Shown here in pieces: positions 1,396 through 4,756 of a stretch of DNA of 48,653 nucleotides. The notes below the pieces were generated by a model that saw only the letters and a list, made by a program, of their open reading frames with translations, was not told the origin of the DNA and made no database searches. This DNA comes from Geobacteraceae bacterium (GTDB taxonomy: Bacteria > Desulfobacterota > Desulfuromonadia > Geobacterales > DSM-12255): NCBI GenBank assembly GCA_013377075.1, contig JACABD010000029.1:1-48653 (forward strand). The letters are read 5' to 3'. Position 1 is the stretch's first letter. Every line of letters starts with the position of its first letter. The position numbers and the translations under genes are program-made.

Positions 1396-1770
1396 GTGGC
1401 TGTTTCAAAGAGTAAAGTTTTCCTCTGGATATTAACCCCTTTTGTACTTATAGCTGCGCTTGTGGCGGGTTATCTCTGGGTTGCCCTTAACTGGAGCTAC
1501 TCAAAAGGGGAACGGGCCGGATACGTACAGAAGTTCTCCGAAAAAGGGTGGCTGATAAAGACCTGGGAAGGGGAGCTTTCACTCGTTGCTCTGCCTGGTT
1601 CTATGCCGGAAAAGTTTTTCTTCACTGTCCGCAAGGATGATCTGGCTTCAAGGATAAACTCTGTGGTTGGTAAACGTGTTGTTGTCGTCTACGAACAGCA
1701 CAAGGGGCTACCGTCAAACTGGTTCGGTGACACTGAATTCTTCGTCAAAGAGATTAAGGTTCTGGATTAA
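1396..1770 (+). CDS. Small membrane-anchored protein of unknown function
   Basis: 124 aa with one N-terminal hydrophobic helix (about residues 8-30, FLWILTPFVLIAALVAGYLW) and an extracytoplasmic tail of about 90 residues rich in aromatic and charged residues. Similar short proteins occur widely and have sometimes been mislabelled as 6-phosphogluconate dehydrogenase; nothing here resembles that enzyme. The start is GTG at 1396, chosen because AGGAGG lies at 1384-1389. It is first of a plus-strand operon; the next gene begins 25 bases after its stop. Function unknown. Confidence 0.75.
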   Translation: MAVSKSKVFLWILTPFVLIAALVAGYLWVALNWSYSKGERAGYVQKFSEKGWLIKTWEGELSLVALPGSMPEKFFFTVRKDDLASRINSVVGKRVVVVYEQHKGLPSNWFGDTEFFVKEIKVLD

Positions 1771-1795
1771 TTCCATAAAAGGAGAAGATACACAG

Positions 1796-2605
1796 ATGAT
1801 TAACTTTTCAAGGCTTTTCAGGATTTCAGGGTCAGTTGCCGCACTCTCTCTCGTAGCAACTGCTGCCTATGCCACCAGCATAGTTGCCATCAAGACCGGC
1901 GATGATATTTTTATCGGCACAGACAGCAAGATGCTGATCGAGAAAGATGTTGCCGTTAACCAGTGCAAGATTACCAAGATGAATGATACCTACCTGGTAT
2001 TCTCCGGTATTCCGGCACTTCCTGCTTCAAGTTTCAATGCCTACGCAATTGCTGAAAAGAGTTTTGCCGGAAAAGGTCCGGTTAATATGCGTCTGGACGC
2101 CTTTGACAAGGCTGTGCAGGGGGAGCTGCAAAAGGCTTTTGAAAAGCTGCGTACAACTGACGACAAGCTCTTTTCGAGATGGTACACGGATGATGTCCAG
2201 ACCCGGGTTGCCCTGCAGCTTCTGGTTGCCGGGGTCGAGAAGAAGGGGACTGTGCTTGCCATGCTGGAGTACAGGATAATCAGCGGCAAGTCCGAGCCGG
2301 TAAAGCTAAAGGCGATAAAGCAGAATATTGTCACCAAGCCGGGTTCGGATCAGCCGAAGATACTCTTTCTCGGTATGCAGGATGCCATCAACGATCTGAT
2401 GAAGAAGAAGGACTTTTTCAGTGATTTCGATGAGGTAAGAAATATTAACGAATGGATTAATGCCGAAATCACTGCCGAGCCGAAACTGGTTGGCGGACCG
2501 GTTGACATCATCAAGATCAGCCCGAAAAAAACTGTCTGGATTCAGCATAAAAGCGAGTGTCCTGAAATTGATGCTCCGGTTGTAAAACCTGCTTCGAAAA
2601 AGTAA
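1796..2605 (+). CDS. Exported proteasome-beta-like (Ntn-hydrolase fold) protein
   Basis: 269 aa. The start is the ATG at 1796 (AAAGGAGAAG upstream). Residues 1-26 form a classical signal peptide ending A-Y-A. Cleavage there leaves Thr as residue 1 of the mature chain (TSIVAIKTG). Mature residues 1-19 align without gaps with 20S proteasome beta subunits: Thr1, Asp17 (GTDSK), then Lys32 (CKITKMND) where proteasomes have Lys33. Further along, LQLLVAGVEKKG and GGPVDIIKIS match the beta-subunit core strands. The residues equivalent to proteasomal Asp166 and Ser169 appear to be Pro and Val. I infer an Ntn-hydrolase activated by signal peptidase rather than by self-processing. Substrate and activity are unknown. 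It sits between a membrane-anchored protein and a DUF362 gene (16-base gap). Confidence 0.7.
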   Translation: MINFSRLFRISGSVAALSLVATAAYATSIVAIKTGDDIFIGTDSKMLIEKDVAVNQCKITKMNDTYLVFSGIPALPASSFNAYAIAEKSFAGKGPVNMRLDAFDKAVQGELQKAFEKLRTTDDKLFSRWYTDDVQTRVALQLLVAGVEKKGTVLAMLEYRIISGKSEPVKLKAIKQNIVTKPGSDQPKILFLGMQDAINDLMKKKDFFSDFDEVRNINEWINAEITAEPKLVGGPVDIIKISPKKTVWIQHKSECPEIDAPVVKPASKK

Positions 2606-2621: not shown

Positions 2622-3503
2622 GTGGAAAGACGACGATTTATACGGCTGATGGGGCTCTCTTCGCTTTTCTGGAGCTTGCCGCTCCGCAACCTTTTTGCCT
2701 CTACCGGACCGGTTGTGGCTGTTGCCGATGGTGCTGACGCCGCAACAATCACCAGAAACGCCATCAATGCCCTTGGCGGCATGAAACGCTTTGTCAAACC
2801 GGGCAATACTGTTGTGGTCAAGCCTAACATGGGGTGGGACAGGACTCCTGAGCTTGCGGCCAATACCAATCCGCTGGTAGTGCGGGCCGTTGTCGAAGAG
2901 TGTCTGCGGGCAGGTGCAAAAAAGGTGAAAGTCTTTGACAGAACCTGTAATGATGAGCGGCGCTGCTATAAAAACAGCGGCATTGAAACTGCTCTGGCAG
3001 GCATGAAGGGGGTCGAGGTCAAGCATGTTGAGGAAGAGCGCTACAAAAAGGTCGCACTGGGTGGCAAGGCGCTGCAGGAGTGGGAGCTTTACGGTGAGGC
3101 GCTTTCAGCCGATGTCTACATAAATGTCCCTGTCCTCAAGCATCACGGCCTTTCCAAGCTGACTATCGGCATGAAGAATGTCATGGGGATCATGGGTGGC
3201 AATCGGGGCTCAATTCACAAGAACATTGATGTCGCCCTGGCCGACATAAACTCCGTATTCAAGACCCATCTCGTTGTTGTCGATGCTACCCGGATTCTCA
3301 CCGCCCATGGCCCCCAGGGGGGCGACATCAAGGACGTAAAGCAGCTCAACAAGGTTATCGCCTCAACCGACATCGTTGCAGCCGATGCCTATGCCACCAC
3401 CCTTTTCGGACTGAAACCTGAAGATATAGCTGTGACTGTGGAAGCCCATAAACGTGGGCTTGGCGAGATGAGAATCGACAGGATGAAGATTTTGAAAGTA
3501 TGA
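2622..3503 (+). CDS. DUF362 domain protein with twin-arginine-like signal
   Basis: 293 aa, GTG start at 2622 with GAGGTGAAA upstream. The N-terminus ERRRFIRLMG followed by a hydrophobic stretch is a Tat-type signal, suggesting export of a folded protein. The body is a DUF362 domain: VVVKPNMGWDR near residue 68, VKVFDRTCND, the run of His/Lys residues in NVPVLKHHGLSK, and GMKNVMGIMGGNRG. DUF362 proteins are common in anaerobes and are often fused or adjacent to ferredoxins; their reaction is not established. Its stop overlaps the start of the Nramp gene (ATGA), so metal transport and this protein are probably co-translated. Confidence 0.85.
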   Translation: MERRRFIRLMGLSSLFWSLPLRNLFASTGPVVAVADGADAATITRNAINALGGMKRFVKPGNTVVVKPNMGWDRTPELAANTNPLVVRAVVEECLRAGAKKVKVFDRTCNDERRCYKNSGIETALAGMKGVEVKHVEEERYKKVALGGKALQEWELYGEALSADVYINVPVLKHHGLSKLTIGMKNVMGIMGGNRGSIHKNIDVALADINSVFKTHLVVVDATRILTAHGPQGGDIKDVKQLNKVIASTDIVAADAYATTLFGLKPEDIAVTVEAHKRGLGEMRIDRMKILKV

Positions 3504-4756
3504 ATCTAGCCGGAATATTCAGCTGGAATGAGCAGACAAAGGCGGTATTTTCCGACATCAGGAAATATATCGGCCCGGGACTGCTTGTCACAGTCGGTTT
3601 CATTGACCCCGGCAACTGGGCGGCCAATGTGGCCGCAGGTTCAATCTACGGCTACAAGCTCCTCTGGATGGTCACCCTCTCGACCATCATGCTGATCCTT
3701 CTCCAGCACAATGCTGCCCACCTTGGAATAGTCACCGGTGAATGCCTTTCAGAAGCGGCCACACGCCATTTGCCAACGTTCATCTCCCGTCCGGTTTTGG
3801 CCTCAGCCTGTCTTGCCGCCTGCGCAACCGCTATGGCAGAACTTCTTGGCGGTGCCATCGCCTTGCAGATGCTCTTTGGCATCCCTTTGAAGATAGGGAC
3901 TGTCATGCTTCTTGCCCTGGTCATCTGGTTCATTCTTGGCACAGCCTACCGCAGGGCCGAGCGATTCATCATCGGCTTTGTTTCCCTCATCGGCCTCTCC
4001 TTCATTTTCGAGCTCTGGCTTGTGCCGACAGACTGGCGCGCCGCCGCTTCCGGCTGGGTTATCCCGGCGTTTCCAGCTGGTTCACTTCCCGTCATAATGA
4101 GTGTGCTTGGCGCGGTAGTCATGCCTCACAACCTCTTTCTGCACTCGGAAATCATCCAGAGCAGGCAGTGGAACCTGGAGAGCGAGGAGACCATCAGATA
4201 CCAGCTGAAATTCGAGTTTCTTGACACACTCATATCAATGGGGATAGGGTGGGCGATCAACAGCGCCATGATACTGATGGCCGCAGCGACTTTTTATGTA
4301 AATAAGCTTCAGGTAACCGAGCTTGCCCAGGCAAAGGAGATGCTTCAGCCTATGCTTGGCAGTAGCGCGGCCATGGTCTTTGCCATAGCCCTCCTTCTTG
4401 CAGGTATTGCCTCATCCATTACCGCCGGAATGGCCGGTGGCAGCATCTTTGCCGGGATTTTTGGCGAGCCGTTTAACAGCAGTGATGTTCATACCCGAAA
4501 CGGAATACTTCTCACCATGCTGCTCGGTACGGCGGCGATTTTTTTCGTTGAGGACACCTTTAAAGGGCTGATCTATTCACAGGTTCTACTCAGCATTCAG
4601 CTCCCCTGGACAATCTTCATGCAGATCTATCTCACCTCCTCAAAAAAAGTCATGGGAAGCCACGCCAACACGATCTTCGGAGCGATCCTGCTCTGGGGAG
4701 TTGCAGTCATAGTGACGTTTCTGAACGTCATGCTGTTGCTCGATTTCCTGAAATAG
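3500..4756 (+). CDS. Nramp-family divalent metal cation transporter
   Basis: 418 aa, about 11 hydrophobic segments. It carries the two family hallmarks: DPGN in TM1 (FIDPGNWAANVAAGS, about residue 37) and MPHN in TM6 (AVVMPHNLFLHSE, about residue 207). The Met in the second motif is typical of Mn2+/Fe2+ transporters rather than of the Mg2+-type relatives. It should import divalent metals with protons across the inner membrane. The start overlaps the DUF362 stop by 4 bases and is last in the 1396-4756 operon. No metal-regulator site is visible nearby. Confidence 0.92.
   Translation: MNLAGIFSWNEQTKAVFSDIRKYIGPGLLVTVGFIDPGNWAANVAAGSIYGYKLLWMVTLSTIMLILLQHNAAHLGIVTGECLSEAATRHLPTFISRPVLASACLAACATAMAELLGGAIALQMLFGIPLKIGTVMLLALVIWFILGTAYRRAERFIIGFVSLIGLSFIFELWLVPTDWRAAASGWVIPAFPAGSLPVIMSVLGAVVMPHNLFLHSEIIQSRQWNLESEETIRYQLKFEFLDTLISMGIGWAINSAMILMAAATFYVNKLQVTELAQAKEMLQPMLGSSAAMVFAIALLLAGIASSITAGMAGGSIFAGIFGEPFNSSDVHTRNGILLTMLLGTAAIFFVEDTFKGLIYSQVLLSIQLPWTIFMQIYLTSSKKVMGSHANTIFGAILLWGVAVIVTFLNVMLLLDFLK

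Follow-up and report, generated by a model that had tools for sequence, protein, structure and literature searches.

Research on proteasome relatives has treated them chiefly as intracellular machines, and a gene of a Geobacteraceae bacterium raises the question of whether one of them might work outside the cytoplasm, switched on by the cut that removes its export signal. The gene lies on contig JACABD010000029.1 of assembly GCA_013377075.1, whose 48,653 nucleotides are hereafter called the window; the source genome (G000) measures 3.7 Mb, is 95.5% complete and carries the gene on its contig 49. At 1796-2605 of the forward strand, the window holds an intact open reading frame for a 269-amino-acid protein, which an initial annotation had interpreted as an exported N-terminal nucleophile (Ntn) hydrolase. 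Overall, our analysis supports that interpretation, in that the predicted fold and the threonine placed after the leader both agree with it, and we consider it likely that the locus encodes an exported Ntn-hydrolase of the proteasome-like kind, with signal peptidase freeing its Thr1. The gene and its product comprise the following features, with residues of the mature protein counted from the threonine that follows the leader (Thr1, Thr27 of the full-length protein):

1780..1784, +, ribosome-binding-like AGGAG upstream of the ATG, read from the sequence
1796..1873, +, leader of 26 residues, a Sec-type signal peptide by its features (positive start, hydrophobic core, A-Y-A at −3 to −1)
1874..2602, +, mature proteasome-like Ntn-hydrolase domain of 243 residues, predicted from an AlphaFold2 model and fold matches
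1874..1876, +, codon of Thr1, predicted nucleophile (17/17 aligned members)
1922..1924, +, codon of Asp17 (17/17)
1964..1966, +, codon of Cys31, candidate disulfide partner adjoining the catalytic lysine (16/17)
1967..1969, +, codon of Lys32, equivalent to proteasome Lys33 (17/17; Lys in the same profile column in 40/40 HslV frames)
2006..2008, +, codon of Gly45, equivalent to proteasome Gly47 of the oxyanion hole (17/17)
2558..2560, +, codon of Cys229, close to the C terminus and a candidate for disulfide bonding with Cys31 (15 of the 16 rows that are ungapped at this column)

Predicted fold and catalytic residues

The leader, MINFSRLFRISGSVAALSLVATAAYA, ends in A-Y-A and is followed directly by TSIVAIKTG, as the initial annotation had read it; its counts from Thr27, placing the aspartate at residue 17 and the lysine at residue 32, were right. 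The segments that it had aligned with strands of 20S beta subunits, LQLLVAGVE (mature 114-122) and GGPVDIIKIS (mature 207-216), coincide with or adjoin the predicted strands 112-122 and 211-215.

Modelled with AlphaFold2 from six sequences, the mature protein reached a predicted local distance difference test score (pLDDT) of 81.2 and a predicted template modelling score of 0.81, and a member from Acidobacteria, 26% identical to it, a pLDDT of 71.3. Foldseek matched the window model to 605 PDB chains at E ≤ 0.001, the best 50 of the 605 all being proteasome chains. The superpositions of VIA-align were tighter than those of Foldseek, with Anbu 5lox (Z 15.1, root-mean-square deviation (rmsd) 3.7, 185 aligned residues) tied at the top with the human beta subunit 8qyo_N (Z 15.1, rmsd 2.9, 167 aligned) and Anbu 5nyw at Z 15.0; the first aligned residue was residue 1 of the window model and likewise residue 1 of 5lox. 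The Acidobacteria model matched the 20S beta5 subunit 5l5b_K (Z 17.3, rmsd 2.8, 176 aligned), again with residue 1 aligned first, the two models being not fully independent because the same six sequences underlie both. As modelled, the protein has the beta-sandwich Ntn fold with flanking helix pairs that marks the proteasome-like family, in both cases the type of fold that the initial annotation had expected and not an unrelated one. A search of viral folds gave ten matches at E ≤ 0.001, including one that bears the name HslV.

In sequence searches, the kinship with proteasomes is visible only when relatives are included and is nearly absent from the window protein taken by itself. This sequence did not reach the Pfam cut-off for PF00227 (E 0.2, 11.7 bits versus a cut-off of 22.4), had no match to an HslV model in NCBIfam and retrieved no proteasome chain among its nine PDB hits; we took weak matches to RENR_N, XopAA, HblD and BioV as noise. 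Among 17 aligned members, ten matched PF00227 at E ≤ 0.1 (best 7e-4), two the HslV model NF003964 (best E 0.0018) and one TIGR03692 (0.023). The family profile recovered proteasome or HslV chains in 25 of its 27 PDB hits up to E 10 (best E 0.018), and profile-profile comparison with ten HslV sequences gave a probability of 94.5 and an E-value of 7.4e-8 over 87 aligned columns, threonine on threonine. The family profile also aligned the initial Thr, the Asp and the Lys with their counterparts in 40/40 HslV frames, namely those of 60 loci that bear the HslV motif. The genome itself, 95.5% complete as it is, contained no other match to PF00227 up to E 10, that is, by this search, no recognisable HslV or proteasome apart from the sub-threshold protein studied here.

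The members come from several scans. Thirteen of 277 genomes of the class matched and were sorted by reading into seven with HslV and six with members, including that of the window and one truncated at the end of its contig. A separate scan matched 3/395 genomes (the window itself, one HslV, L021, and another proteasome-like protein, L020), and a further one 60/385, where the 30 loci read comprised 28 HslV, the window and L089, at the place of L020. When named genomes were scanned with alignment A2, six loci emerged, four of them in Geobacter, one in Geobacteraceae and one in Acidobacteria; with the Acidobacteria genome as centre we obtained matches in 12/396 sampled genomes of the phylum (A3) and 14/162 of the class (A4), both counts including the centre genome and several of the matches being other proteasome-like proteins. 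Nothing useful came from scanning genome contigs with the window protein alone, from plasmid searches with the window protein and with P0005, or from viral contigs searched with A2. One 963-amino-acid match (L007 of G091, E 0.004, in one of seven matching genomes) was judged spurious by eye. The resulting alignment A4 has 17 members including the window protein, to which 13 of the 16 others are only 17-28% identical; L056 and L057 were added to the leader table only (19 members). Partial (L005, L058), two-frame (L032) and more distant or leaderless sequences (L042, L059-L063) were excluded before counting. The two-frame sequence (L032; 662-1615 and 696-1151, both −) represents the family a second time in Acidobacteria genome G655, may be either broken or affected by a sequence error, and reads GRA/TTIV in its N-terminal part (the slash standing before the presumed Thr1, here and below). 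L020, L042 and L086 form a separate proteasome-like group with a Met-Ser start (a candidate Ser1) and no leader, which has in common with the window protein's family the C-terminal motif VGGPIDVL...W(I/V)QxK.

The only invariant columns of A4 are, in full-length numbering, M1, T27, D43, K58 and G71, the last four of which correspond to proteasome Thr1, Asp17, Lys33 and Gly47; S44, C57, G193 and W248 are kept in 16/17 rows, and C255 in 15 of the 16 that are ungapped at its column. According to the available part of PMC8665760, the triad Thr1/Ser1, Asp17 and Lys33 and the oxyanion-hole Gly47 are common to all proteasome-like homologues. The set is present here in 17/17 members at each column, an agreement that is more than chance because these columns and the start methionine are the only ones without exception. 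Nor is a lysine at position 32 odd, since the catalytic lysine is residue 32 or 33 in the Anbu, beta and HslV proteins compared and 37 in one BPH. The initial annotation had asked whether Thr1, Asp17 and Lys are invariant and always follow a signal peptide: the residues are invariant, as is the threonine after the leader (17/17), while the signal peptide is not always present.

Leader, predicted cut site and cysteine pair

The leader of the window protein has a basic start, a hydrophobic core and small residues at −3 and −1, as expected of a substrate of Sec and signal peptidase I according to a simple rule, and its hydropathy peaks at 2.17 over ten residues. We scored leaders as positive when mean hydropathy was at least 1.8 over ten residues and the leader at least 15 residues long, a cut-off of our own choosing, with the starts of several members selected among alternatives; 14 of the 19 members passed. 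In this table Thr1 was mostly found by a Thr-initial pattern or set by hand, the independent count being the 17/17 of the alignment. The residue at −1 is Ala in 11 members, Gly in six, Gln in one and Met in one. Counted by eye, 12 of the 15 leader-bearing members (the 14 that pass and P0003) combine Ala or Gly at −1 with Ala, Ser, Val or Leu at −3, and the window protein and three close relatives have Ala at both sites.

The leader also evolves like an export signal. Against the same-genus homologue, the nonsynonymous difference is 0.394 in the leader and 0.122 in the mature part; in four pairs it ranges per site from 0.306 to 0.548 in the leader and from 0.122 to 0.209 in the mature part (up to residue 260), so that the leader changes 2.2 to 3.2 times faster in all four. 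Synonymous difference in the mature part is far higher (0.42-0.72) than nonsynonymous. The protein is therefore under purifying selection, more loosely in the leader, as in signal peptides.

Both cysteines occur in 14/14 members that pass the leader rule versus 2/5 of the others (P0003 and L039), an association with a Fisher p of 0.010 that is no true probability because the members are related. Pairing of cysteines with a leader is what would be expected outside the reducing cytoplasm and, judging from these sequences, a Cys31-Cys229 disulfide probably holds the C-terminal tail next to the active site.

Proposed mechanism and its rivals

Under the preferred reading of an exported enzyme activated by signal peptidase, the precursor would be sent through the Sec pathway and signal peptidase I would cut it after A-Y-A, the same cut creating a free N-terminal threonine. 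Thr1 would then act as nucleophile and base, helped by Asp17, Lys32 and the oxyanion hole of Gly45, and a Cys31-Cys229 bond, if formed, would fix the C-terminal tail near Lys32. The mature enzyme would act in the periplasm or outside the cell, where it would most likely cleave (or transfer) an amide or peptide bond of substrates that are small or unfolded. We know of no ATP-driven unfoldase outside the cytoplasm, and the substrates should therefore be small, unfolded or specific. With rather less assurance, though still as the somewhat more probable course, we propose that a branch of proteasome-like proteins left the cytoplasm, that signal peptidase took over from self-processing or methionine removal, and that a pair of cysteines next to the catalytic lysine serves to stabilise or switch the enzyme, which in an oxidising compartment devoid of ATP would be an unfoldase-free threonine amidase, peptidase or ligase.

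Several observations weigh against this reading. The matches of the window protein to known families all lie under the curated cut-offs of Pfam and NCBIfam, the alignments behind both models have just six, shared rows, and the Foldseek superpositions are loose (query template modelling score 0.42-0.49, rmsd 7-14 in the listed rows). The evidence for a leader comes from a simple hydropathy rule and not from a trained signal-peptide predictor; P0003 narrowly fails the rule (1.76 versus 1.8) though its MKK start is evident, and L039, L045, L041 and L057 have no signal peptide, L039 keeping both cysteines nonetheless. L035 (QLG/T), L037 (YGQ/T) and L044 (EAG/T) are unfit for a signal peptidase cut at Thr1, and the leader of L035 passes the rule yet has charged residues after its core. 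In the window protein itself, an alternative cut site (A-T-A/A) lies three residues upstream. Finally, the operon has no known partner.

If exported, the protein could nevertheless be catalytically dead, a binding protein of proteasome fold with Thr1 kept for structural reasons, an alternative that we regard as unlikely. The initial annotation had considered inactivity given the apparent loss of the Asp166 and Ser169 equivalents, and by eye this cluster, like the Gly-Ser-Gly of HslV, does seem absent from the alignment; moreover, no activity of Anbu was seen on standard peptides (PMC5666114, available part). However, the columns kept without exception are precisely the catalytic ones, and only the triad and Gly47 are named as family-wide in the accessible text of PMC8665760, which makes inactivity the less likely outcome. 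From the sequences we infer that the exported enzyme is probably active.

It is also conceivable, though we give this slightly less credit still, that the protein frees Thr1 by processing its own leader, in the manner of proteasome beta subunits; the hydrophobic segment would then be an anchor or an export signal, with signal peptidase not cleaving precisely at Thr1. A glycine before Thr1 is typical of self-cutting beta propeptides, and six of the 19 members, three of which have no signal peptide, carry it at −1, where L037 has glutamine. Nevertheless, the window protein and three close relatives have alanine at both −3 and −1, a plain signal-peptidase site; L044, L037 and L035, with Gly or Gln before Thr1, might need one-residue self-processing after export. 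That the protein is instead cytoplasmic, with an N-terminal extension unrelated to export, appears very improbable. Four relatives do lack a signal peptide, one of them starting directly with Met-Thr, but the four Geobacter-type leaders retain a basic start, a hydrophobic core and AxA despite rapid sequence change, and the association of the cysteine pair with the leader speaks against a reducing environment.

Gene neighbourhood and comparison with known systems

Three genes flank that of the exported protein proposed here:

1396..1770, +, 124-amino-acid protein with an N-terminal hydrophobic stretch, upstream of the 1796-2605 gene after a 25-bp gap
2622..3503, +, DUF362 protein (PF04015, E 4e-52) with, by eye, a twin-arginine-like start MERRRFIRLMG, after a 16-bp gap
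3500..4756, +, NRAMP-type metal transporter (PF01566, E 3e-107), overlapping the DUF362 gene by 4 bases

The 124-amino-acid protein has no Pfam match over the cut-off, and the DUF362 protein is perhaps a second exported product of the same gene run. In the window, L024 and L022/L004, the family gene stands between the 124-amino-acid gene and the DUF362 and NRAMP genes, the neighbours in L024 and L022 being recognised by likeness to those of the window and not by family search; a similar 124-amino-acid frame occupies the same place in L024 and L004. In L023/L003 only an NRAMP-like gene follows, and neither of the other two genes adjoins. Different genes surround the Geobacteraceae member L026 and those of the Acidobacteria loci, with no neighbour recurring by eye in 13 Acidobacteria loci, whose layouts come from a crude gene caller that missed the member itself in L118 and L122. 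As neighbours differ among loci, we drew no function from context; the proteasome-like families of PMC8665760 are likewise described, in its available part, as lacking telling genomic context.

A cation-efflux metal transporter (PF01545; L027, 3005-3937) directly precedes the Acidobacteria member, and an NRAMP metal transporter gene lies two genes after that of the window, a parallel that is perhaps a coincidence. The member of L127 (G995, 3976-4626) is leaderless, starts with Met-Thr and lacks the cysteine pair; nearby genes for an integrase of the phage type (PF00589) and for a protein with weak likeness to Toprim suggest a mobile element. Promoter-like sites in the window were not above shuffled sequences (4 versus 3.4), whereas terminator-like sites were (10 versus 4.3, standard deviation 2.0), several of them inside genes.

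Among known systems, Anbu (5lox, 5nyw) resembles the window protein in predicted fold, with residue 1 aligned first. Anbu has no propeptide, exposes Thr1 by removal of the start methionine and reacts through it with epoxomicin only if the N terminus is free (PMC5666114, available part); the window protein differs by the 26 residues that precede its Thr1. With HslV and 20S beta subunits it has in common Thr1, Asp17, Lys33, Gly47 and the predicted fold, but it scores below every curated cut-off and has in addition a predicted export signal and a cysteine pair, and by eye the GSG and C-terminal motif of HslV are missing from the family alignment.

A further comparison is with the 22 proteasome-like families that Fuchs, Alva and Lupas described in 2021 (PMC8665760; e.g. 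PHD, WPH and PMI), distant prokaryotic proteasome homologues with the triad and Gly47, for which, as far as the available text goes, "proteasome-like" implies neither assembly into rings or barrels nor peptide hydrolysis. The accessible main text of that paper does not mention signal peptide, secretion, periplasm, extracellular or transmembrane, nor does the available part of a paper citing it mention signal peptide, periplasm or secreted, and we found no report of an exported proteasome homologue among the leading matches in the open-licence literature searched. The exported form thus seems unreported in the literature searched, even if the family may itself fall within one of the 22, such as PHD. 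Connectase, a distant proteasome relative, is a protein ligase (PMC8665760, available part), and the chemistry of the exported enzyme may accordingly not be proteolysis.

Ntn chemistry outside the cytoplasm is otherwise represented by penicillin G acylase, PvdQ, penicillin V acylases and some bile salt hydrolases, which belong to other Ntn families and use a Cys or Ser nucleophile. In some Gram-negative penicillin V acylases, removal of the signal peptide exposes Cys1. Penicillin G acylase cuts itself during export (PMC5474475) and bile salt hydrolases of the canonical Ntn type are "often cytoplasmic" (PMC13081902), both according to the parts of these sources available. If our reading is correct, a proteasome fold acts without ATPase partners in another compartment and Thr1 is exposed in a new way, in a small enzyme that lends itself to simple tests of activation; compared with its known relatives, a proteasome-like enzyme exported as proposed would be unusual both in its place and in its mode of being switched on.
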